This document shows, in pieces, positions 1-9,463 of a DNA stretch of 34,146 nt. The notes below the pieces were generated by a model that saw nothing but the letters and a program-made list of their open reading frames with translations, ran no database searches and was not told the origin of the DNA. The stretch covers positions 1 to 34,146 of IMG/VR virus record IMGVR_UViG_3300012924_000017, one strand, 5' to 3'. Numbering within the stretch: the first letter of the stretch is position 1; every line of letters begins with the position of its first letter. Position numbers and translations under genes: made by a program. The stretch comes from a virus.

Positions 1-48
1 CACCGGGTGCCCACGGACGAGCCGTGGACCCCGGAGTTCGATCAGTGA
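1..48 (+). CDS. C-terminal end of a plus-strand gene (partial)
   Basis: Frame 1 reads 15 codons from the window edge to a TGA at 46-48 (HRVPTDEPWTPEFDQ). It overlaps the end of the convergent gene at 42-290 by a few bases, a normal arrangement for convergent phage genes. Nothing can be said about function, and the stretch is short enough to be open by chance. Confidence 0.3.
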   Translation, partial: HRVPTDEPWTPEFDQ

Positions 49-290
49 CACTTAGCGTCGATCTGGTGATCGGTTTGGCAGTGCTGACAGCCTCCATCGC
101 GTGCGGTGACCGTGATGGTCACGTGCACGGTCGGGTCAGCCAGGACGTCGTGCATCCACTCGCCGACCAGTGACGGGCCGACCTTGGTCAGGTGTAGTGC
201 CAGGATCATGCGTTCGTGCTGGTTGAGCTGAAAGGTCATGGACGAGTCGGCGATCAGGTTGGCTCGCCGTCCGTGTAGCTGGGCGGACAT
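42..290 (-). CDS. small unrecognised protein with C-terminal CxxC
   Basis: An 82-residue protein. I chose the ATG at 288-290 because AAAGGAG lies 7 bases upstream; the longer ORF reading further upstream would run into the neighbouring gene. The C-terminal part has a CxxC pair (Cys68, Cys71) and further His/Cys (H70, H75, C81, H82), which could bind zinc. No family is recognised. It lies 25 bases downstream of the gene at 316-567 on the same strand, so the two are probably co-transcribed. The RBS and even composition support a real gene; the function is unknown. Confidence 0.7.
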   Translation of the reverse strand: MSAQLHGRRANLIADSSMTFQLNQHERMILALHLTKVGPSLVGEWMHDVLADPTVHVTITVTARDGGCQHCQTDHQIDAKCH

Positions 291-315
291 TGGGAACTCC
301 TTTGGCTGGGACTGG

Positions 316-567
316 TCAGTGCTCGGCGTGCTCGCCGTTGACGCGCACCCACTCAAGAAGCAAGCGGAGCTCGTCACGGCACTCGATCGGGTCCTCGAAT
401 CGCTCTGGATTGCCGAGAACGTAGGAGAGCTCGCGGGCGACCTCATCGGCCAGACCGTCGGCAGTCCATCGTGGGTGACCAGTGGCGAACGCGGTCAGGT
501 TTTCGTCGCGCCACGAGGGGGAGATCCACCCGGCGGCGATTTCACGTGCTCTGGACTGGTCGATCAT
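316..567 (-). CDS. small unrecognised acidic protein
   Basis: An 83-residue, mostly helical-looking protein rich in Glu, Asp, Arg and Trp, starting at an ATG preceded by GGAG at 6-base spacing. No membrane segment, signal peptide or known motif is seen. It is the upstream member of a two-gene reverse-strand unit with 42-290 and is transcribed divergently from the terminase-small-like gene at 669. The 568-668 gap should therefore hold the promoters of both. I do not recognise the family. Confidence 0.7.
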   Translation of the reverse strand: MIDQSRAREIAAGWISPSWRDENLTAFATGHPRWTADGLADEVARELSYVLGNPERFEDPIECRDELRLLLEWVRVNGEHAEH

Positions 568-668
568 TGAGTGCTCCGATTCGTTGAATCTCTAACTATT
601 CTCTCGTGACCAAGTGGTCAAAAGCAAGGCACTTGACAGATTGCCGCTCGATTGAAACGGAGGCGGAG

Positions 669-1208
669 ATGACCGCGAACCCTCTCGGTCTCCCCGGGGA
701 GCCAGCGGCTAAGCCGCCGCGTAAGAAGCGGCCGAACCCACAGAACGCGCCGACTAACCCGAAGGTGATGGACCGGCTAGAGCGGGACCTCGAATGTGTT
801 GCGTTGCGCCGTGCCAATCTCGAGTGGGACGTGATCGCTAAACGGCTCGGATACTCTAATCCGAGCCATGCCTATCAGCGGTTCATGCTCGTAATGAAAA
901 GCTACCCGGTCGAGCAAGTTGACGATGCGCGCGAGGTTGAGCTCCAGCGCTACAACGAACTCCTAGCCGCTGTCTGGCCTCAGTGCCTTGATACTGAGAG
1001 TAAAAACCAGCACTGGGCGATAGACCGCGCGGCCAAGCTCATGGACCAACGTGCGCGGCTCATGGGCTGGAATCGACCCGTTCGGCAGGAGATCGCGGTA
1101 CTCACTGAGTCCACGGTGGACAGTGCAATTCGTGATCTTCAGGCGCAGATGGAGTCGCAGATCGCGCAGGCCAAAGCGGCTGGCATTGAGCTGCCAGTGA
1201 CCGTCTAG
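669..1208 (+). CDS. terminase small subunit-like DNA-binding protein
   Basis: A 179-residue protein. The ORF is open from 606, but I chose the ATG at 669 because GGAGG (659-663) lies 5 bases upstream. Residues 1-32 are a Pro/Lys/Arg-rich basic tail. Residues 44-73 form a helix-turn-helix-like segment (ANLEWDVIAKRLGYSNPSHA), and helices rich in Arg, Leu and Glu follow, as in many actinophage small terminase proteins that recognise packaging sites. This layout is family knowledge read by eye. TerL lies 3.2 kb downstream rather than adjacent, with reverse-strand genes between. A different HTH protein is possible. A TTGACA at 633-638 has no convincing -10 partner. Confidence 0.65.
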   Translation: MTANPLGLPGEPAAKPPRKKRPNPQNAPTNPKVMDRLERDLECVALRRANLEWDVIAKRLGYSNPSHAYQRFMLVMKSYPVEQVDDAREVELQRYNELLAAVWPQCLDTESKNQHWAIDRAAKLMDQRARLMGWNRPVRQEIAVLTESTVDSAIRDLQAQMESQIAQAKAAGIELPVTV

Positions 1209-1268
1209 AGGCCATCCATTACCAATGCGCGGTAAAACTCGCGCGTATGTAGCTGCATGGTTACCGAG

Positions 1269-1293
1269 CGTGCACGTACGGTGTACGTGCACG
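1269..1293. terminator. bidirectional hairpin between convergent genes
   Basis: A perfect 11-bp inverted repeat (CGTGCACGTAC, loop GGT, GTACGTGCACG) in the gap between the convergent terminase-small-like gene, ending at 1208, and the recombinase gene, ending at 1301. There is no U tract, which is common for actinobacterial terminators. It would serve both strands. Confidence 0.6.
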
Positions 1294-1300
1294 TCGGAAA

Positions 1301-1882
1301 TCAGGCAGAGCCGATCACCCGGTACGCGGTCGCCCGGGACACTTCGAACGAGCGGCACAGGGCCGCGATCGTCTCGCCGCCAGTGTGCAGCGCGCGCAAC
1401 TGTCGCGCGCGATCCGCATCGAGTCGCGGCGGTCGTCCGGTCTGCTTCCCGCGGGCTTTCGCCGCGTTCCGCGCGTCGGTCGACCGTTCGTTGATCAATT
1501 CGCGTTCGTACTCGGCCAGTGCGGCAAAGATGCCCGCGAGCATGCGCCCGACGCTAGTTGAGTAGTCAATCGACTCCTTTAGCGAGCGAAGCACGATCCC
1601 GCGGCGGTGCAGCTCGTCCGCCGTGGCGATCACCTGGCTCAGTGAGCGGCCCAGACGGTCAAGCGACGTGACCACGATGGTGTCACCCTCGCGTGCTGTC
1701 CGTAGGAGCTCGTCGAGACCCTTCCGGACGAACTTCGCTCCAGAGATCTTGTCGTCGTAGATGTCCGCGGGCTGGACGCCCGCAGCCGTGAGCGCGTCTA
1801 CTTGTCGGTCGTGCGTCTGGTGGCTCGTGGAGACGCGCACGTAGCCCAGAACCTTTGATGTCATGATCGTCGAGTGCCTCAC
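1301..1882 (-). CDS. small serine recombinase (resolvase/DNA invertase type)
   Basis: A 193-residue protein from GTG 1880-1882; an ATG at 1862-1864 (MTSKVLGYVRVST) is an equally likely start, and neither has a good RBS. The catalytic domain has the nucleophile in YVRVSTS (Ser18), the LDRLGRS arginine motif near residues 74-80 and the long helix E region (VGRMLAGIFAALAEYERELI, about 111-130). A C-terminal helix-turn-helix (about 169-190) follows GRPPRL. The size fits Tn3/Hin/Gin-type resolvases and invertases, not large phage integrases. It acts by a covalent phosphoserine intermediate at a dyad crossover site; a good candidate lies about 100 bases upstream (1983-2008). It may invert a segment, resolve multimers or be a moron gene. 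The family is secure, the role is not. Confidence 0.92.
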   Translation of the reverse strand: MRHSTIMTSKVLGYVRVSTSHQTHDRQVDALTAAGVQPADIYDDKISGAKFVRKGLDELLRTAREGDTIVVTSLDRLGRSLSQVIATADELHRRGIVLRSLKESIDYSTSVGRMLAGIFAALAEYERELINERSTDARNAAKARGKQTGRPPRLDADRARQLRALHTGGETIAALCRSFEVSRATAYRVIGSA

Positions 1883-1939
1883 AAGTCGGCGCGTGGCTCG
1901 GATGAGACAACGCTGTTACGAACACCCTTATGATACACC

Positions 1940-1967
1940 CCTGACCAGCACAAAGGCGCTGGTCAGG
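1940..1967. promoter_or_regulatory. inverted repeat upstream of the recombinase gene
   Basis: A perfect 10-bp inverted repeat (CCTGACCAGC, 8-base loop, GCTGGTCAGG) lies 58 bases upstream of the recombinase start. It sits between the end of the 2111-2386 gene and the recombinase. It could be an operator, an accessory recombinase-binding site, or a terminator for the upstream gene. No U tract is seen. Confidence 0.4.
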
Positions 1968-1982
1968 CTATGTGCCGCATGT

Positions 1983-2008
1983 CGTCTCAGTACCTTGGTA
2001 GTGAGACG
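1983..2008. promoter_or_regulatory. 26-bp dyad, candidate serine-recombinase crossover site
   Basis: The sequence is two 12-base half-sites around a central TT: arms CGTCTCA and TGAGACG are perfect complements, then comes a G.G mismatch, then TACC/GGTA. A further TGAGAC lies at 1903-1908. The dimension (half-sites of about 12 bp around a 2-bp core) is what Hin/Gin/Tn3-type recombinases use for strand exchange, and the recombinase gene is adjacent. A repressor operator is the main alternative. I did not find a second full copy by eye. Confidence 0.4.
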
Positions 2009-2054
2009 ATATACGGAGCGTGATTTGGGCGTGGTCTGAGCGACCACCGAGTGC

Positions 2055-2071
2055 CCGCGAGTAACTCGCGG
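2055..2071 (-). terminator. hairpin after the 2111-2386 gene
   Basis: A 7-bp perfect stem (CCGCGAG, loop TAA, CTCGCGG) about 40 bases past the stop of the reverse-strand membrane protein gene. It has no U tract. It belongs to a series of hairpins that follow the genes of this block. Confidence 0.45.
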
Positions 2072-2110
2072 ACCCCGGAATGCGGCTCAGATAGTGCGTC
2101 GTTGGTGGAG

Positions 2111-2386
2111 TCATCGCTGTTCCCGGATACCAATCGAGCGTGGTTGGCCGAGTCGTCGCCGAGCCGCCATCTTGCGCCACTTCAGGTACACGGCGACGGC
2201 GATCACGATTCCGGCGATAACCCAGGTACTGATGAGCACGGTCCATGCCGCTTGGTCGAGCCGCATTAGCGGTCCGGTGCCGTGCGCGTACTGGACGAGA
2301 GACTGCACGAACAGGATGGGTTGACCGAGGATGGCGATCCCTCCGACCCATGCCATGCCGTAGCCCTTGATTCGACTACTGGCCAT
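2111..2386 (-). CDS. small two-pass membrane protein
   Basis: A 91-residue protein from an ATG with GGAGG 7 bases upstream, a strong RBS. Two hydrophobic segments are clear, about residues 11-32 and 47-69, joined by a short polar loop and followed by a basic tail (KWRKMAARRR), which by the positive-inside rule should be cytoplasmic, placing both ends inside. The size and topology would fit a holin, but no endolysin gene is near and the gene is in a reverse-strand cargo block, so I do not call it one. It could equally be a superinfection-exclusion or other membrane moron protein. Confidence 0.7.
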   Translation of the reverse strand: MASSRIKGYGMAWVGGIAILGQPILFVQSLVQYAHGTGPLMRLDQAAWTVLISTWVIAGIVIAVAVYLKWRKMAARRRLGQPRSIGIREQR

Positions 2387-2476
2387 GCTTCTTCCTCCGT
2401 TGGTAGTTGAGTGTGGCCAAATGACCAGGACGCGCCACAGGCGCGGTGTTGATGGCCTTAGTCTGAGCAGACCAGG

Positions 2477-2512
2477 CGAACGAGCGCGCGGTGATTGCCT
2501 CGCGCTCGTTCG
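2477..2512 (-). terminator. strong hairpin after the 2521-2757 gene
   Basis: A perfect 12-bp inverted repeat (CGAACGAGCGCG, 12-base loop, CGCGCTCGTTCG) just past the stop of the reverse-strand gene at 2521. It is a likely transcription terminator without a U tract. Confidence 0.6.
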
Positions 2513-2520
2513 AGAGTGGC

Positions 2521-2757
2521 TCAGCTAGAGATTCGTAGGTAGCGTTCGGCGGCGTGTGCCAGCATGACCGCGGCTACGGTGCGGTCGCTCACCAGGCCCT
2601 GGTACTCGGTGTGCTCGTAGCGGGCAAGCGGGGTGGTAACCAAGTACTGGTGGACGGCGAGCTCAGCGGCCCGAAACTCGGTGGTGGACTCGACTAGGTC
2701 GGTCCTGGCCGCGTCCTCTAGGGACCATGCGGTAGTGGGGTCGTAGGCGACGGTCAT
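2521..2757 (-). CDS. small unrecognised helical protein
   Basis: A 78-residue protein. I chose the ATG at 2755-2757 because AAGGGAG lies 7 bases upstream; the ORF is open further upstream only through the tRNA-like element. It is acidic, alanine-rich and probably helical, with no membrane segment or Cys cluster. A 12-bp hairpin follows it, and the tRNA-like element lies 39 bases upstream on the same strand, so the two may share a transcript. No family is recognised. Confidence 0.65.
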   Translation of the reverse strand: MTVAYDPTTAWSLEDAARTDLVESTTEFRAAELAVHQYLVTTPLARYEHTEYQGLVSDRTVAAVMLAHAAERYLRISS

Positions 2758-2796
2758 GGTGGGTACTCCCTTGGCTGGGTGGTGGCACGGGTGGAG

Positions 2797-2897
2797 TGCC
2801 TCGCCCCGGAATCGAACCGGGAAGCTCGCGCATCCATGGGGTGCCGGTGAACCGGCGCCTTGCGGCGTACGCGCGTGGGATACCAGCCACGCGAGGC
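2797..2897 (-). tRNA. tRNA-like element with an abnormal anticodon arm
   Basis: Read on the minus strand, a perfect 7-bp acceptor stem (GCCTCGC with GCGAGGC, then A as discriminator) and a perfect T arm (CCCGG, loop TTCGATT, CCGGG) sit in normal relation. A D-like arm (GTGG, loop CTGGTATC, CCAC) follows the acceptor with no room for positions 8-9. A stem in the anticodon position (GCGCGT with ATGCGC, one G.U) is followed by a 6-base variable region (GAGCTT). The loop it closes is 35 bases instead of 7 and contains two mini-hairpins. No standard anticodon with U33 can be placed, and no CCA is encoded. It may be a degenerate tRNA, a tRNA with an insertion, or a tRNA-like attachment or regulatory element. 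Confidence 0.35.
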
Positions 2898-3124
2898 GTA
2901 GATCAACTATCCCTCGCACTGTGACGTTTCAGAGGCTGTACGCATCTCGGCGGGTCGGTCTAACCCTTAGCTACCGGATGGCGCTCCGCGACTGACTCAC
3001 GGTTGCGTTATGGATCTTGCGGGCCGGAGGCACTTGGGTCACTTCTGGTCGCGTGTCGTGGGACCTCGCGCCGCGTGTGTGGTCGGCCATGCTATGGAGT
3101 TGATGTAGGTCTGACGACCTGGTC

Positions 3125-3147
3125 AGCGCCCGGGTGACCCGGGCGCT
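3125..3147 (-). terminator. hairpin after the 3158-3364 gene
   Basis: A perfect 10-bp inverted repeat (AGCGCCCGGG, loop TGA, CCCGGGCGCT) 11 bases past the stop of the reverse-strand gene. The rest of 2898-3157 shows no credible gene: the reverse ORF there has no RBS and a poor composition. Confidence 0.6.
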
Positions 3148-3157
3148 CAACGGGCTG

Positions 3158-3364
3158 TCAGACGTGCCATTCACTGGTGGGGTGCACCCAGTACACTTCG
3201 CCGTCCTCGAGCCAGTGCATGCGCACGTAGCCGCGGCCGTCACTCGCTGTGATCTGAACGAGGCCTAGGCCTCGGATCTCGTAGGTGCGCCCGACGTGGA
3301 GTTCGCGGGCAAGGTACACGCGCGCGCGGGGGGCCGCGGGGGCGGTGGTTTCGGTGGTTGGCAT
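3158..3364 (-). CDS. small unrecognised beta-rich protein
   Basis: A 68-residue protein from an ATG with AGGA 7 bases upstream. After a Thr/Pro/Ala-rich N-terminus, residues 15-65 look like a small beta barrel with aromatic residues (RVYLARELHVGRTYEIRGLG, then VQITASDGRGYVRMHWLEDG). It may be an SH3-like or KOW-like fold, but that is a guess from strand pattern. It is monocistronic in appearance, with its own terminator hairpin at 3125-3147. Confidence 0.65.
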   Translation of the reverse strand: MPTTETTAPAAPRARVYLARELHVGRTYEIRGLGLVQITASDGRGYVRMHWLEDGEVYWVHPTSEWHV

Positions 3365-3550
3365 ACGCCAATCCTACCGTCGGGGGGACCTCGGGCATAC
3401 CGCCGAACGAGTGATACCCCCCATGATCAACTTCTCTTGCGAAAATTGGGCAAGGGTATATCGCTGTCAGCGTGCGGACGGATTTTCGGCGGCGATTTTT
3501 CGAAAATGATTCTCAACTAACTGTACGAAGATCATCCCGCCATCCGTTCA

Positions 3551-3567
3551 CGGACGCTCCGCGTCCG
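3551..3567 (-). terminator. hairpin after the 3589-3954 gene
   Basis: A 7-bp perfect stem (CGGACGC, loop TCC, GCGTCCG) 21 bases past the stop of the reverse-strand gene. The rest of 3365-3588 is less GC-rich than its surroundings and I see no gene in it. It should hold the promoter of the 3158-3364 gene. Confidence 0.45.
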
Positions 3568-3588
3568 GAGAACCGGAAAGAGCAAGAA

Positions 3589-3954
3589 CTACCTACGGTC
3601 GCGGAGCCAGACGAAGAACGACCTCGGGTACTCCTGGTCCGGATCCATCCGCAGCTTCACCGCCAACGCCTCCGCGGCTTCACGCGAGCAGCCCAGCGCT
3701 GCCATGACGCCCGCGCGGAACGGAATGCGGCGGTCCTTTCGACGCAAACACCACGTGAGTACCACCCCGGCACCTATACCAAGCCCGGCCCACACACCCG
3801 TGGGGACCGGTCCGGACATGCCCGCCTCGTGCCAGATCCGCGCCGTCAAGCCCGCGGCGCCAACCACCACGACGGTCGCCAGGCAGCCCGCTCCACCGTG
3901 AGCGACGTCATGGGCGGCGACGCCCACGGCGCGTCCGAACATGCGACCGACCAC
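3589..3954 (-). CDS. two-pass membrane protein with basic cytoplasmic tail
   Basis: A 121-residue protein from GTG 3952-3954, one base after the stop of the upstream gene at 3956-4381, so it is translationally coupled to it. Two hydrophobic segments span about residues 22-40 and 53-70. A basic patch follows (CLRRKDRRIPFR), then a soluble helical tail with SREAAEALAVKLRMDP, which resembles a small UBA- or HTH-like helix pair. Its role is unknown. It pairs with the helical protein upstream. Confidence 0.65.
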   Translation of the reverse strand: MVGRMFGRAVGVAAHDVAHGGAGCLATVVVVGAAGLTARIWHEAGMSGPVPTGVWAGLGIGAGVVLTWCLRRKDRRIPFRAGVMAALGCSREAAEALAVKLRMDPDQEYPRSFFVWLRDRR

Positions 3955-3955
3955 G

Positions 3956-4381
3956 TCACTGTCTCCCCGCCGCGATGTCCAGCAGCGCTTTGCGCACGAT
4001 CACGAACGCTTCCCGCTGCTCGTCGGTGAGCTGGTCGTAGTACTCCGAGTGGTGCTCGTCAAGGCGTTCGGCGGTGACCTTCAACGGGCTGTCCTTGAAC
4101 CGCCACCGGATCGTCTCGGCGGGCAGCTGCTCGGCGGGCTTGTTCAGCTCCGCCTCGACTTGCTCCAGCGTCATCCCCTGGCCGGTTTCGAACGCCCGGA
4201 TGGCCAACTCGCCGCCGCCACGTGGAGCGGGATTGGCCCGTGTGTCCGGCACCAGGACGAACTTCTCGTAGTCGTATGCCCCCGGGTCGCGTCGCATGGA
4301 CTTGACCAGCATCAGCCCGCGGCGGGACGCCCCTCGCCGAGCCTTGTTCTCGCGGACCTTATCCGCGGCGCTGCTTCTCAT
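3956..4381 (-). CDS. unrecognised helical protein of actinobacterial type
   Basis: A 141-residue protein from an ATG at 4379-4381. The N-terminus has a basic stretch (KVRENKARRGASRRGLMLVK) followed by SMRRDPGAYDYEKFVLV. This recalls a small-protein pattern seen in many actinobacterial genomes and phages, where basic helices precede a R-D-P...Y...L strand; its function is not known to me. The C-terminal half is helical and acidic (LDEHHSEYYDQLTDEQREAF). It is divergent from TerL with only 49 bases between, so the two genes share a small control region. Confidence 0.75.
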   Translation of the reverse strand: MRSSAADKVRENKARRGASRRGLMLVKSMRRDPGAYDYEKFVLVPDTRANPAPRGGGELAIRAFETGQGMTLEQVEAELNKPAEQLPAETIRWRFKDSPLKVTAERLDEHHSEYYDQLTDEQREAFVIVRKALLDIAAGRQ

Positions 4382-4430
4382 GCCCTAAGTATGCCCGAAG
4401 AGATGCCCGACGTCAACCCGAGGGGGAGCC

Positions 4431-6980
4431 GTGCCCGACGTCCCCCTGATCGAAGCCCCGTTGGAGAAGCTGGAGCTGCTGGCTAAGCTGCGCCAGCAAC
4501 AGCTCGAGCTCAACAAACTGATCGCCATCCACGCCCCCGCGCGTCCGCGTCCGTGGCACGACAAGGCCCGGCCGGAGCAGCGGATTCCGGCGGACGGGGC
4601 TTGGTCGGTCTCGTTGATCTTAGCAGGTCGCGGATTTGGCAAGACGAAATCTGGCTCAGAGTGGATTGCAGAGCAGGCGGCGACACACCCGGAAACAGAA
4701 TGGGCCGTAATCGCACCAACGTGGCGGGACTGCCGCAAAGTCTGTATCGAAGGTCAGTCTGGCATACTGCGAGCACTTTTGCCAGGGGAACTGGAGTCGT
4801 GCAACGCCAGCGACTTGACTGTGCGGCTGTCGAACGGGTCGCGGATCTACGGGTACTCGGCGGACCGGCCGGACCGACTGCGCGGGGCCAACTTGTCCGG
4901 TGCTTGGTGCGTAGCGAAGGGCACGCCGGTCATCACCGCTCGTGGCGACGTCCCTATCGAACGCGTATGCGTTGGCGACCGAGTGGCGACCCGCCACGGA
5001 TGGCGCCGGGTCAGTGCTGCCCGTCGAACTGGCGTAAGCCGCTCGACCTTGGTGATTACCACCAGTGCTGGAGTGCTGCGCTGTACTCCCAACCATCGCA
5101 TTGCCGTCAGTGAACAAGGGTGGTGCGTCGCTGGTTCAATCAAGCCAGGTGATACACTACTTGGATGCTCCCCGATCCCAGCCCCGGTCCACCCGCATGG
5201 TTCGAGTTCAACGGCCAGCGTTACTACCGAAACGCACGAGTGCGGTACTACTACGATCCCACCGGCAACCTCCTTCACCATGCCGTCTGGGCCGCGGAGC
5301 ATGGGCCAATTCCAGCAGGACATCATGTCCATCACCGCAACCACGACCGCGGCGATAACGCCGAGTCGAACCTGCAGCTGCTCACAGACACTGAGCACTG
5401 GGAACTGCATGCCGCTGAACGGCGATTGCCGGCTGTCCCTCCTCGGCCGTGTGTGGAGTGCGGGAAAGAGTTTCAGCCCTTGGCCGCGAAGGCTCATGTG
5501 CTCTGCTGTTCACGGGCCTGCGGTAGCAAGAAAGCCGTACGTACTCGCGCCGAACGAAGCAAGCCCCGCGAAGAGCGTGAACTGGTTTGCAAGCAGTGCC
5601 TCAGCACGTTCCGCACTACCGCCACTCACGCCGTGTGCTGCAGCGACGAGTGTCGGACTGCCCGGCGTAAGGCACGCAACACTGGCGATCCCCGCTATGA
5701 CCCTGGACGCTATGGCCAGCCGCGTATCAAGACGTGTCCAGTCTGCGGTCAAGAGTTCGAAGCCAAGACCGACCACATCGAGCTGTGCAGTCGCAAATGC
5801 CGCGCAAAACGCAGTTCCGACTGGAACACGGCACGCTGGCGAGAACGCGCGCCCGTCGCGCGTCGCTGCGAGCACTGTGGTGACGAGTTCTTCTCCCGTG
5901 CGACTGCCGGAAGCTGGTGCTCCAAGCTCTGCCGTACTCGGGCCCGTCGTACTCGGAGTCGAGCCAAGCTTGGACTGTGACGTTTTCGACCTAACCGTCG
6001 AAGGCGTGCATGAGTTCTATGCGGGCGGTGTGCTCGTGCACAATTGCGACGAGCTAGCCGCTATGGGTCAGGCCGATGAGCTTTGGGGCGAAAGCCTCAT
6101 GCCCGCGCTGCGGATCGGTGAACACCCCCGAGTGGTGGTCACAACGACGCCGCGGCCGACGAAGTTACTCCGCGAGTTGCTTGCCCGCACCGACGGCTCG
6201 GTACGCGTTGTTCGCGGTTCGACCTGGGACAACGCCGCGAATCTGTCCAAGATGGCACTGGCGGAACTGCGGGCCCGCTACGAAGGCACCAGACTTGGTC
6301 GCCAGGAGCTCGAAGGCGAGCTGCTCGAGGATCTCGAGGGCGCCCTGTGGAGCCGCGACCTGCTCGATCTGACCCGGGTCGACAAGGCACCGTCGCTGGC
6401 CCGGATCGTGGTCGGTGTCGACCCGGCGGTGACCAGCGGCGAGCGGTCCGACTCGACCGGCATCATTGTCGCCGGTCGAGGAGTGGACGGGGATCTGTAC
6501 ATTCTCGAGGACGCGACCTGCAAGGGCACTCCGCACAGCTGCATGTCCAGGGCAGTGCACGCCTATCACCGCTGGCACGCCGATCGGGTGATCGGCGAGG
6601 TGAACAACGGCGGCGACTATATCGAGGGTGTACTGCGCACCGTCGATGCGAACGTCGCGTACAAGTCCGTTCGCGCCACCCGCGGCAAGCTGGTACGCGC
6701 CGAGCCGATTTCGGCGTTGTGGGAACAGGGACGCGGTCACCTGGTCGGAGTATTCCCCTCGCTCGAGGATGAGCTATGTGGGTTCACTAGTGACTCTACG
6801 GAGTCGCCGGACCGCTTGGATGCACTCGTATGGAGTAGCACGGAGCTCCAAATGGGCTCCAGCGCGCTGTCGTACTTGTCCGCGATCTCCAGAATGTGCT
6901 TGAAGTGCGACCTACCAAACCGGCGCAAGGCGACCGTGTGCCGCGGCTGCGGCGGGGAGCTGACCGACGCTGTTGCCTAA
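4431..6980 (+). CDS. terL: terminase large subunit interrupted by an intein
   Basis: The 849-residue precursor starts at GTG 4431 behind AGGGGGAG. The exteins are residues 1-159 and 539-849, 470 in all, the usual TerL size. The ATPase has Walker A (GRGFGKT, about 67-73), Walker B interrupted by the intein (LSGAW, then CDELAAM) and a coupling motif (VVVTTTPRP). The nuclease has metal-binding acids in VVGVDPAV, VIGEVNNGGDYIEG and DRLDALVW. TerL translocates DNA into the prohead and cuts it. An unusual extra is the C-terminal zinc ribbon (CLKCDLPNRRKATVCRGCGG). The intein separates Walker A from the Walker B acids, so splicing should be required for activity. The last 69 bases are antisense to the 6912-7217 gene. 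Confidence 0.95.
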   Translation: MPDVPLIEAPLEKLELLAKLRQQQLELNKLIAIHAPARPRPWHDKARPEQRIPADGAWSVSLILAGRGFGKTKSGSEWIAEQAATHPETEWAVIAPTWRDCRKVCIEGQSGILRALLPGELESCNASDLTVRLSNGSRIYGYSADRPDRLRGANLSGAWCVAKGTPVITARGDVPIERVCVGDRVATRHGWRRVSAARRTGVSRSTLVITTSAGVLRCTPNHRIAVSEQGWCVAGSIKPGDTLLGCSPIPAPVHPHGSSSTASVTTETHECGTTTIPPATSFTMPSGPRSMGQFQQDIMSITATTTAAITPSRTCSCSQTLSTGNCMPLNGDCRLSLLGRVWSAGKSFSPWPRRLMCSAVHGPAVARKPYVLAPNEASPAKSVNWFASSASARSALPPLTPCAAATSVGLPGVRHATLAIPAMTLDAMASRVSRRVQSAVKSSKPRPTTSSCAVANAAQNAVPTGTRHAGENARPSRVAASTVVTSSSPVRLPEAGAPSSAVLGPVVLGVEPSLDCDVFDLTVEGVHEFYAGGVLVHNCDELAAMGQADELWGESLMPALRIGEHPRVVVTTTPRPTKLLRELLARTDGSVRVVRGSTWDNAANLSKMALAELRARYEGTRLGRQELEGELLEDLEGALWSRDLLDLTRVDKAPSLARIVVGVDPAVTSGERSDSTGIIVAGRGVDGDLYILEDATCKGTPHSCMSRAVHAYHRWHADRVIGEVNNGGDYIEGVLRTVDANVAYKSVRATRGKLVRAEPISALWEQGRGHLVGVFPSLEDELCGFTSDSTESPDRLDALVWSSTELQMGSSALSYLSAISRMCLKCDLPNRRKATVCRGCGGELTDAVA
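4908..6044 (+). mobile_element. intein in TerL at the Walker B motif
   Basis: A 379-residue intein, precursor residues 160-538. It begins with Cys1 in block A (CVAKGTPVITARGDVPIERV) and GD-VATRHGWRRV, and block B is CTPNHRIAV. The N-terminal splicing domain ends at about KPGDTLLG (base 5164). The C-terminal domain resumes at CDVFDLTVEGVHEFYAGGVL (block F) and ends in VHN followed by Cys+1 (TGC 6045-6047), all the residues needed for class 1 splicing. The penultimate residue is His. Between the two domains, residues 246-515 in this frame are Ser/Thr/Ala/Pro/Arg-rich with no recognisable endonuclease. The endonuclease lies in another frame (5165-5980). Confidence 0.93.
5165..5980 (+). CDS. HNH homing endonuclease nested out of frame in the intein
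   Basis: 271 residues, read in the -1 (+2) frame relative to the intein. An HNH core sits at about residues 53-82 (HHVHHRNHDRGDNAESNLQL, then H78 and H82). Four zinc-finger-like units follow, with Cys pairs at 96/99 and 115/119, 142/145 and 159/163, 191/194 and 208/212, and 235/238 and 252/256, each with a CS-x2-C second half. HNH homing endonucleases cut intein-less alleles to spread the intein. The ATG at 5165 has AGGTGA 12 bases upstream, and an in-frame TGA at 5150-5152 excludes a start further back, so independent internal initiation is likeliest. The TGA at 5978-5980 falls at the first residues of the C-terminal splicing domain. Confidence 0.9.
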   Translation: MLPDPSPGPPAWFEFNGQRYYRNARVRYYYDPTGNLLHHAVWAAEHGPIPAGHHVHHRNHDRGDNAESNLQLLTDTEHWELHAAERRLPAVPPRPCVECGKEFQPLAAKAHVLCCSRACGSKKAVRTRAERSKPREERELVCKQCLSTFRTTATHAVCCSDECRTARRKARNTGDPRYDPGRYGQPRIKTCPVCGQEFEAKTDHIELCSRKCRAKRSSDWNTARWRERAPVARRCEHCGDEFFSRATAGSWCSKLCRTRARRTRSRAKLGL

Positions 6981-7217
6981 CCAGGACCACCCCGCCGGTT
7001 GCGGCGCGGGCGGGGGACACCAGTTCATCGGGTGCGAAAACGCTTCGTCGTACCCGGGGTCGATGAACTCCAACATCTCCCGAACTTCCTCGCGGCCCCA
7101 GTCCTCGTCGTCGAACTCGGGGTGCACGTACAGCGGCAAGCCGGGGCGCCAGTACCCCTCGGGGTAGTTGCACAACTGGGCCGCCCAGGGGCCATCGTCG
7201 TCGTCGGCGGGGGACAT
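6912..7217 (-). CDS. small acidic unrecognised protein
   Basis: A 101-residue protein from ATG 7217 with no good RBS. The N-terminal two-thirds are acidic and aromatic (MSPADDDDGPWAAQLCNYPE, then YVHPEFDDEDWGREEVREML), a composition unlike a chance ORF. The Ala/Gly-rich C-terminal 22 residues lie antisense to the zinc ribbon of TerL. I recognise no family; the pattern resembles small acidic hypothetical proteins common in actinobacterial phages. It is a convergent neighbour of TerL and is divergent from the portal gene. Confidence 0.55.
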   Translation of the reverse strand: MSPADDDDGPWAAQLCNYPEGYWRPGLPLYVHPEFDDEDWGREEVREMLEFIDPGYDEAFSHPMNWCPPPAPQPAGWSWLGNSVGQLPAAAAAHGRLAPVW

Positions 7218-7516: not shown

Positions 7517-9463
7517 GTGTCGCGTCGCCGTCGTCGACCCACGCCACCGCAACCGACGGCCGACGTCCGGCGGATCTTCGCCGAAGAACTACAGAAGGCG
7601 TTGACCCTGCCACCCGGTGCGCAGGCCACCCAGGTGACCGCGGGGTACCTGCAGCAATTGCAGCAGCGTGGCAATCCGCGCGGCAGCGGCGAATTCGCGC
7701 TGACCCGCGACCCGTACACCAACGCCAACTTCGGTCCGGGGATGCCGCTGTACCCGGCACCGCTCGACCCGCCGCTGCCCTCTGGCCGTCCAGCGCCCCG
7801 GCGCTGGGAATACCCGGTCAGTTGGAACCTGCAGACGACCAGCACCCGCAGCGTGCCGTGGAGCGTGCTGCGCGACGCCGCGGATCAGGTATCGGTGATG
7901 CGGTCCTGCATCGAGATCTGCAAGACCGCGCTGACCGGGCTGGACTGGGCATTTACCGTGGACTCCGCGCGGGCTCGACACCTGGCGAAGCGTTCCGGTG
8001 AGTCGAATCACACGGTGATCAGCGACTTGCAGGACAAGTACGCGGACGACATCGATCGGCTGCATTCCTGGTGGCTGAAGCCGGACCGGATCAATAACTG
8101 GACATTCAGCGAGTGGCTAACCGCGTTAATGGAAGACCAATTAACGTTGGACGCCGTGAGTATCTACCCGCACTTGCAGATGAATGGCGACCTCCACTCA
8201 CTAGAGCTGCTTGACAGCACGACTATCAAGCCATTGTTGGACCATCGCGGAGCCACCCCGCAGCCACCCTTGGCTGCGTTCCAACAGATCCTGTGGGGCT
8301 TTCCTCGGGGCGAATTCTCCCAGTCCGCGATCGAGGACGTCGACGCGGAATTCATCTCCGCTATCTACGGCAAGATTAACGGCCTGGAAGCCAAGACGGA
8401 CGGTCTGATCTACAAGGTCCGCAACAGGCGGACCAGGGGCCCGTACGGCTTTTCGAACGTCGAACAGGCGCTCATCGACGTGGATCTCTGGCTGAAGCGG
8501 TTTGACTGGCTGCGCAGCGAATACACCGCCGGGGTCACTCCGGAAATGATCGTCCAGGTGGATGCGTCGATGACCCCGGAGCAGCTGCGCCAGTACGAAG
8601 CGGTGTTCAATGACGAATTGAGCGGTCGAACCGCCGACCGTCACCGGGCCCGGTTCCTGCCGGCCGGGTTCGAGGCGAGTTATCCGCGCATGATGGACTC
8701 GAAGTTCAACTCCGACTTCGATCTGCACTTGATCCGGTTGATCTGTGCCGCATTCGATGTAATGCCCACTTCCCTCGGCTTTACCCCTAACCATGGCATG
8801 GGCGGCATGGGCGGGCAAAGCATGCAGCAGGGCGAGTCGGACACGCAGAAACAGCGTGGTACCAAGCCCACCGCGACCTGGGTCACCGACCTGATCAACG
8901 AGGTGTGTCTGCACTACCTGGACATGCCCGAAGAGCTGACATTCGCTTTCCTCGGGCTAGATGACGATGACGAGGATAAGGAAGCCACCCTGCTGACCAC
9001 CTACGTCGGGGCGGGTCTGCAGACGTTGAACGAGGGCCGCGATCAGCTCAACCTGCCGCGGTATGACTTCCCGGAGGCGAACCAGCCGTACCTGGCCACG
9101 CCAACGGGTCCAGCGTGGCTGAACGTCGACGTCCAACCGGTCGGGATACCCGGGAACCTGCCGTCCGCGGCGGTGAACCAGCAGCAGGCCGCGATCAAGC
9201 CCGGTGATCCGGCGAGCCGTCCAGAACTGCCGGTGGCCAAGAAGCCCGCCAAGCGCGACGAGTCGGTACAAGCCGCGCCGGACGTGGCCCGCCGCGGCGA
9301 GCAGAAGGCGTTCCTCACTTTCGCCGCCAACCGCGCCGGCAACAAGACCTGGCGCGACTTCCAGTTCAAGATCCTCGCCGACGACACCGCCGAGGCTGCT
9401 AACCGGTTGGCCGCGGCCGGCGACCTGGCCGCGGTGAAAGCACTGTTCGCGCTGCATGACTGA
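7517..9463 (+). CDS. portal protein
   Basis: 648 residues, starting at GTG 7517 with GGAAGGGG upstream. After a basic, Pro-rich N-terminus, the core reads as a phage portal: NLQTTSTRSVPWSVLRDAAD and VMRSCIEICKTALTGLDWAF early, a wing with LTLDAVSIYPHLQ, then VEQALIDVDLWLKRFDWLRS and AAFDVMPTSLGFTPN, which are portal stem and clip-type sequences. The portal is the dodecameric ring at the head vertex through which TerL threads DNA. The C-terminal 120 residues are Pro/Ala-rich then helical (QKAFLTFAANRAGNKTWRDF). Its position directly after TerL is canonical. Confidence 0.9.
   Translation: MSRRRRRPTPPQPTADVRRIFAEELQKALTLPPGAQATQVTAGYLQQLQQRGNPRGSGEFALTRDPYTNANFGPGMPLYPAPLDPPLPSGRPAPRRWEYPVSWNLQTTSTRSVPWSVLRDAADQVSVMRSCIEICKTALTGLDWAFTVDSARARHLAKRSGESNHTVISDLQDKYADDIDRLHSWWLKPDRINNWTFSEWLTALMEDQLTLDAVSIYPHLQMNGDLHSLELLDSTTIKPLLDHRGATPQPPLAAFQQILWGFPRGEFSQSAIEDVDAEFISAIYGKINGLEAKTDGLIYKVRNRRTRGPYGFSNVEQALIDVDLWLKRFDWLRSEYTAGVTPEMIVQVDASMTPEQLRQYEAVFNDELSGRTADRHRARFLPAGFEASYPRMMDSKFNSDFDLHLIRLICAAFDVMPTSLGFTPNHGMGGMGGQSMQQGESDTQKQRGTKPTATWVTDLINEVCLHYLDMPEELTFAFLGLDDDDEDKEATLLTTYVGAGLQTLNEGRDQLNLPRYDFPEANQPYLATPTGPAWLNVDVQPVGIPGNLPSAAVNQQQAAIKPGDPASRPELPVAKKPAKRDESVQAAPDVARRGEQKAFLTFAANRAGNKTWRDFQFKILADDTAEAANRLAAAGDLAAVKALFALHD

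Follow-up and report, generated by a model that had tools for sequence, protein, structure and literature searches.

How is a mobile intein built when the endonuclease that it carries does not lie in the reading frame of the intein? In textbook inteins the endonuclease is an in-frame domain, and splicing and homing reside on one polypeptide. A different arrangement is found in the terL gene, coding for the large terminase subunit, of the IMG/VR virus record IMGVR_UViG_3300012924_000017 (positions 1 to 34,146; this 34,146-base stretch is called here the window). The gene is interrupted by an intein, and the intein is overlapped by an HNH endonuclease gene in another frame. The element is very probably a mobile intein whose splicing and homing functions are divided between two overlapping genes. 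An intein with an out-of-frame, separately initiated homing endonuclease, as set out in the preliminary description of this DNA, is supported in the window as well as in about 94 non-redundant relatives, and represents a widespread design of mobile inteins that has largely been overlooked, with about a hundred diverse phages using it. The features of the locus are listed below; ORF denotes open reading frame, pLDDT the predicted local distance difference test score, HMM hidden Markov model, and AF2 AlphaFold2.

4431–6980, + strand: terL, large terminase subunit, 849 aa with the intein, GTG start (Terminase_6N/6C; PHROG terminase large subunit, 1.1e-31).
4908–6044, + strand: intein, 379 residues from Cys1 to the terminal Asn; the +1 residue is Cys, at 6045–6047 (Hint_2, Intein_splicing, intein_Cterm; AF2; empty-site comparison).
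4908–5174, + strand: N-terminal splicing domain, with Cys1, and TPNH as the TxxH of block B (family HMM match; pLDDT 90–98 over residues 1–90).
5147–5153, + strand: AGGTGAT, Shine-Dalgarno-like, 11–12 nt before ATG 5165; it also encodes the conserved Hint Gly-Asp (GGT GAT).
5165–5980, + strand: HNH endonuclease ORF, 271 aa, ATG start, stop at 5978–5980 (HNH_3, 4e-13; PHROG HNH endonuclease, 1.6e-20; I-HmuI; AF2).
5175–5941, + strand: intein-frame linker, open, predicted to be disordered, without recognisable domain (pLDDT 42–60; no Pfam domain).
5270–5398, + strand: HNH catalytic core, residues 36–78 of the endonuclease, with invariant H38, H56, H57, N69 and H78.
5450–5932, + strand: four zinc-finger-like CxxC...CxxxC motifs, with invariant C142, C145, C159 and C163 (read from the translation).
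5942–6044, + strand: C-terminal splicing domain, FDLTVEGVHEFYAGGVLVHN (intein_Cterm, 7.6e-5; pLDDT 85–98).

The splicing blocks had been described as complete at both ends of the intein, with nothing recognisable between them in the intein frame, and both statements hold. Hint_2 (5e-6), Intein_splicing (2.6e-5) and intein_Cterm (7.6e-5) are matched in that frame, and the residues of class 1 Hint-type inteins (Cys1, TPNH, and VHN followed by Cys+1) are read directly in the window. In the AlphaFold model, obtained with the family alignment, pLDDT is 90–98 for residues 1–90 and about 97 for residues 351–379, and falls to 42–60 in the linker of about 255 residues. A profile search with the splicing domain against solved structures gave the gp41-1 split intein as best match (4e-17), and many solved inteins were matched by Foldseek with the splicing-domain model. 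An alignment of TerL to an intein-free homologue, proposed earlier as a check, was made with the protein of Microcystis phage Mae-JY09 (LRGPQHDAAW-ADELAAW), and places the insertion at GAW^(A/C)DEL, which is the Walker B motif. This comparison, as well as the empty allele of Acinetobacter phage Highwayman described below, denotes a clean insertion into a conserved site with the host frame kept. Both halves lie in a single uninterrupted ORF, and not on separate ORFs as in split inteins. A group I intron was also considered as identity of the region, and dropped, as no Rfam covariance model was matched up to E=1 within positions 4300–7100 of the window.

Relative to the terL frame, the endonuclease is encoded at offset 2, i.e. 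−1, and is not the in-frame domain of a canonical intein; the 271-residue HNH protein announced for this frame is found as described. The profile of the endonuclease family matches I-HmuI (6.6e-5). A catalytic motif and DNA-binding modules, as featured by HNH homing endonucleases, are both present: HNH_3 was found in 52/52 members scanned, and the catalytic His/Asn/His and the zinc Cys residues are invariant in the family. In the AF2 model, mean pLDDT is 84, and 91–98 approximately in the HNH core. A fold search with the HNH model returned nothing significant (zinc-finger chains, and I-HmuI at E 0.34), and the HNH identity therefore rests on sequence profiles. Four zinc fingers had been counted. 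Four CxxC...CxxxC pairs are indeed seen in the translation; fingers 2–4 are well modelled, finger 1 only at pLDDT of about 55. The ORF had also been said to begin where the N-terminal splicing domain ends and to stop as the C-terminal one begins. Within the intein (4908–6044) this is correct except that the stop extends about 8 nt into the C-terminal block. The HNH stop overlaps the start of that block in 86/94 relatives, by a median of 17 nt.

Relatives were collected by HNH similarity, blind to frame, and by tblastn against phages. The HMMs for classification were derived from this same family, starting with a few cases found by similarity to the window, and redundancy was removed at 70% HNH identity. 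The loci are mostly metagenomic contigs, and are consistent with the records of the named phages TJE1, Highwayman and LS06-2018-MD07. Altogether 196 loci with an HNH of the family were retrieved. The HNH lies at offset 2 within a single unbroken intein ORF in 140 of them, mostly in terL, and at offset 1 in one locus (L117). The C half went undetected, the frame being open, in 5 loci; the intein halves reside on separate ORFs in 15, and no Hint domain is found nearby in 35. Among the 161 Hint-associated relatives, no contiguous intein has an in-frame HNH. The non-redundant set includes 94 contiguous, 9 split and 32 Hint-less cases, and in 88 inteins of the family the first residue is Cys and the last Asn, followed by C/S/T. 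A search of genome contigs with the window HNH gave three weak matches, none of which is such an intein.

The window being a virus contig of IMG/VR, an assembly or sequencing error might mask an ordinary in-frame HNH intein. Practically no credence can be given to this explanation, under which about 94 diverse loci would each require two compensating indels, always with the same offset; the named phages TJE1 and Highwayman share the layout, and stops are avoided in the intein frame. No indel joining the two frames was encountered in the relatives, which retain an identical offset. The hidden HNH ORF is unannotated, for example, in Tetrasphaera phage TJE1 and in Acinetobacter phage Highwayman. 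Locus L117 (IMGVR_UViG_3300034069_002149, positions 1570–4746) is a terL with two inteins, in which a second Hint-like insertion lies upstream and the C-terminal intein carries the HNH at offset 1.

Several points weigh against two overlapping genes in a mobile intein. Synonymous shuffling of the endonuclease gene of the window gives 0.94 expected intein-frame stops, with P(0)=0.28, and the open intein frame of the window, taken alone, could be due to chance. The 94 contiguous cases are stop-free by definition, and bias is avoided only by testing the 103 Hint-flanked genes together. The AGGTGA in the window speaks only weakly for a ribosome-binding site, and its role is uncertain, because the same bases encode the conserved Hint Gly-Asp; GTG starts occur in about a quarter of the family. 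No DNA-level or near-identical relatives of the window were found among annotated phages, so that its own mobility rests on evidence from the family. Splicing, expression of the endonuclease by internal initiation, cleavage and homing are inferred from sequence.

At the family level, openness of the intein frame is decisive. The intein frame is free of stops in 94 of the 103 non-redundant HNH genes that have a Hint half on either side, against an expectation of 17.9, and the remaining genes carry 2–14. A count of stop avoidance in contiguous inteins only was discarded as circular, and replaced by this test. Relatives not embedded in a contiguous intein serve as internal controls, and show no avoidance: 76 stops were observed versus 72 expected in the split, and 193 versus 180 in the freestanding ones. 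In 30 pairs of relatives, differences in the overlap measure 0.22, 0.185 and 0.474 at HNH codon positions 1, 2 and 3, respectively. HNH position 3 is intein position 2, where a change always alters the linker. The N-terminal splicing domain (30 pairs) has differences of 0.233, 0.212 and 0.44 by intein codon position, and peaks at position 3. A comparison of dN/dS in both frames over homologues, also suggested beforehand, gave in 11 close pairs an omega of 0.16 for the HNH, denoting purifying selection, and of 0.69 for the linker. From the omega values and the codon-position pattern it follows that the endonuclease is maintained by selection, and that the linker is nearly free except for stops. 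The view that both frames are constrained is correct for the family, but does not reach significance for the window alone (P of about 0.28), and constraint in the intein frame concerns almost only the avoidance of stops, not amino acids.

Where translation of the endonuclease begins is the next question. In its frame a TGA is found at 5150–5152, and the first start codon downstream is ATG 5165. Independent initiation had been argued from this TGA and from AGGTGA; the former is confirmed in the sequence, the latter is confounded by the conserved intein motif. The likely start is ATG in 67/94 relatives. Shine-Dalgarno matches of at least 5 nt accompany 25% of the starts versus 5% of the other ATGs in the same inteins (55% versus 18% for matches of at least 4 nt), and several are perfect, as AAGGAGGT in locus L118. 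The HNH might instead be produced by programmed −1 ribosomal frameshifting from terL, as a fusion of TerL-N, IntN and HNH, since offset 2 is equivalent to a −1 shift in all contiguous cases except one. The ATG near the conserved start and the Shine-Dalgarno enrichment make frameshifting very improbable, as do the offset 1 of L117 and the split relatives, in which IntN is at offset 0, 1 or 2 to the HNH. Coding by itself explains the constant offset. Shuffled genes of contiguous inteins contain fewer than 2 stops each in HNH+1, the frame used, versus about 13 in HNH+2; because HNH+1 is far easier to keep open, no frameshifting mechanism is needed. The other frame is also possible, as L117 demonstrates. 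No classical slippery heptamer was noticed on reading positions 5153–5200 of the window (the family was not scanned).

Evidence bearing on mobility of the element comes from Acinetobacter phages. In the terL of phage Highwayman the element is inserted after IDA (IDA^C...HN^CRYAIEK), and the near-identical phage Acba_21 has the exact empty allele (IDALRYALEK); flanking sequences are 99.6% identical over 1608 nt upstream and 100% over 598 nt downstream. In Highwayman, Cys+1 and the altered residue just after it look like the outcome of co-conversion. The filled/empty allele pair bears indirectly on the predicted cleavage of the empty site and copying of the element. Among 78 matching Acinetobacter records, 1 covers the element full length, and this is Highwayman itself. 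Over 6,774 pairs, identity in the splicing domain correlates with identity in the HNH (0.76), and the two therefore travel together. Wholesale swapping of endonucleases among inteins was rejected, as no pair combines very similar splicing domains with dissimilar HNHs, or the reverse.

Insertion sites were found within 90 residues of the end of TerL (nuclease motif) in 76/94 cases, and most others are at Walker B. The host is TerL in 9/10 cases checked, and in 1/10 a RecT-like annealing protein. In this locus (L031, positions 3063–5003) the intein with the out-of-frame HNH resides in a RecT-like single-strand annealing protein, not in terL. HNH proteins adjoining terL assist packaging in some phages, and freestanding relatives of the window HNH often adjoin terL or the portal gene. 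The HNH might accordingly be viewed as a terminase partner lodged in the intein, rather than as a homing enzyme. This is held to be very unlikely: presence is sporadic (1/78 Acinetobacter records) and an exact empty allele exists, intein and HNH diverge together, one copy sits in the annealing gene, and the profile resembles that of the homing endonuclease I-HmuI.

For the intein with two overlapping genes, the following scheme may be drawn. Translation of terL would give a precursor made by TerL-N, intein and TerL-C, from which the Hint domain (residues 1–89 and 346–379) would excise itself at the Walker B site GAW^CDE, the disordered loop of about 255 residues being discarded along with it. 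Translation would also start within the intein, most likely at ATG 5165 in the −1 frame, and yield a free 271-aa HNH/zinc-finger endonuclease. The enzyme would cut intein-free terL alleles, and intein and endonuclease gene would be copied in by recombination. Selection would retain the endonuclease sequence, and in the intein frame of the overlap would mainly exclude stops, because a stop would truncate TerL.

The same HNH family is found in other contexts. Split inteins surround it in 9 non-redundant relatives, and phages of Exiguobacterium, Pseudomonas, Sphaerotilus and Brevundimonas have freestanding HNHs with terL on one side and portal or structural genes on the other. A freestanding gene adjoining terL is the obvious candidate donor of intein endonucleases. 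In the HNH tree, contiguous members are interspersed with free and split ones; the tree has 16 changes in total, of which well-supported branches force at least 4 per label, and deep branches are weak. The pattern suggests repeated moves between contiguous, split and free states, in a tree without resolved direction. That the nested form arose only once is not demonstrated by this tree, given the scatter and the at least 4 forced changes, although the deep branches are weak.

Some loci deserve a separate description. In Lactobacillus phage CL2 (L093, positions 455–2771) the annotated terL ends in IntN, the HNH comes next, and IntC plus the TerL C-terminus form an unannotated ORF; the intein is split, and TerL is probably completed by trans-splicing. 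Vibrio phages 1.238.A and 1.245.O (L002/L003, positions 3–3371) apparently have in terL an in-frame LAGLIDADG-like intein plus a split intein flanking an HNH gene, and intein parts are annotated as separate 'hint' proteins. Acinetobacter phage vB_AbaM_BP10 (L096, positions 2387–3028) has a freestanding HNH upstream of terS, and its terL appears intein-free. This HNH shares a well-supported clade with the Highwayman intein HNH; it is possibly a donor, or part of a collaborative homing pair.

The arrangement is a plausible step towards split inteins. An endonuclease with its own start and stop would render the disordered intein-frame linker dispensable, and a stop plus a new start in the linker would leave a free endonuclease gene between two halves that splice in trans. 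A broader view, that inteins with out-of-frame, separately initiated endonucleases are a large, previously unrecognised class in phage terminases and also a usual route from ordinary to split inteins, is put forward tentatively, as somewhat less likely than not. With separate proteins from overlapping genes, homing could be expressed, mutated or lost without affecting splicing. The class makes testable how inteins acquire endonucleases, as well as the origin of split inteins, since the same endonuclease family and host gene occur in both architectures side by side. Surveys limited to the host frame would label such inteins as endonuclease-free with a long linker. The splicing domains are natural Hint folds tolerating loops up to about 300 residues.

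In the window, terL (4431–6980) is followed by the portal gene (7517–9463), then by tail genes. A highly charged ORF of 141 aa (3956–4381, − strand) lies on the opposite strand directly upstream of terL, and the TerL C-terminal tail (6895–6960) features a zinc-ribbon-like CxxC...CxxC motif (CLKCDLPNRRKATVCRGCG).

The element may be compared to several known systems. Canonical inteins may carry an HNH domain in frame, as Synechocystis GyrB, and share with the window the association of Hint domain and HNH endonuclease in one mobile element. In contrast, 0/161 Hint-associated relatives have the endonuclease in frame of a contiguous intein. Dassa et al. reportedly described in 2009 'fractured genes', with split inteins (gp41-1, NrdJ-1) and a freestanding endonuclease gene between the halves. 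The likeness is in gp41-1, the nearest solved splicing domain, and in the 9 split relatives around the same HNH; the window intein is however contiguous, and its endonuclease overlaps it instead of standing between genes. The endonuclease family of those fractured genes is also said to differ from that of the window. Group I introns with ORFs such as I-HmuI similarly remove themselves and harbour a free endonuclease ORF, and the profile matches I-HmuI. The window differs as no intron RNA was detected there, the machinery for removal is a protein, and the host frame is open.

Closest to the window is an insertion in the methylase of phage ShiLan, which encodes an out-of-frame HNH, is devoid of splicing domains and is thought to remain in the methylase (PMC11855218); the same kind of methylase is found in phage Applejack, according to its genome announcement (PMC12613952). 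In ShiLan, as in the window, a phage gene carries an open insertion that encodes an HNH with zinc-finger motifs out of frame; the ShiLan HNH is at offset 2 as well, and is distantly matched by the profile of the window HNH family. Unlike the ShiLan insertion, the HNH in the window is flanked by complete Hint halves with all splicing residues, and the insert is therefore regarded as an intein. Moreover, the ShiLan insertion is in a methylase, and the window family mostly in terL and far more diverse. A literature search, which did not cover the Gosselin 2025 preprint, found only the ShiLan methylase line as published precedent. That preprint, cited in PMC11855218 for overlapping reading frames in actinobacteriophages, deals with actinobacteriophage inteins of 'non-canonical architecture', and may report some inteins of the kind found in the window. 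How far the arrangement had been reported had been left unanswered at the outset: an out-of-frame HNH without splicing domains is already on record in a phage methylase (PMC11855218), so that the arrangement has a partial precedent. The breadth of the family, the avoidance of stops, the split relatives and the empty/filled allele pair are results of the present analysis.
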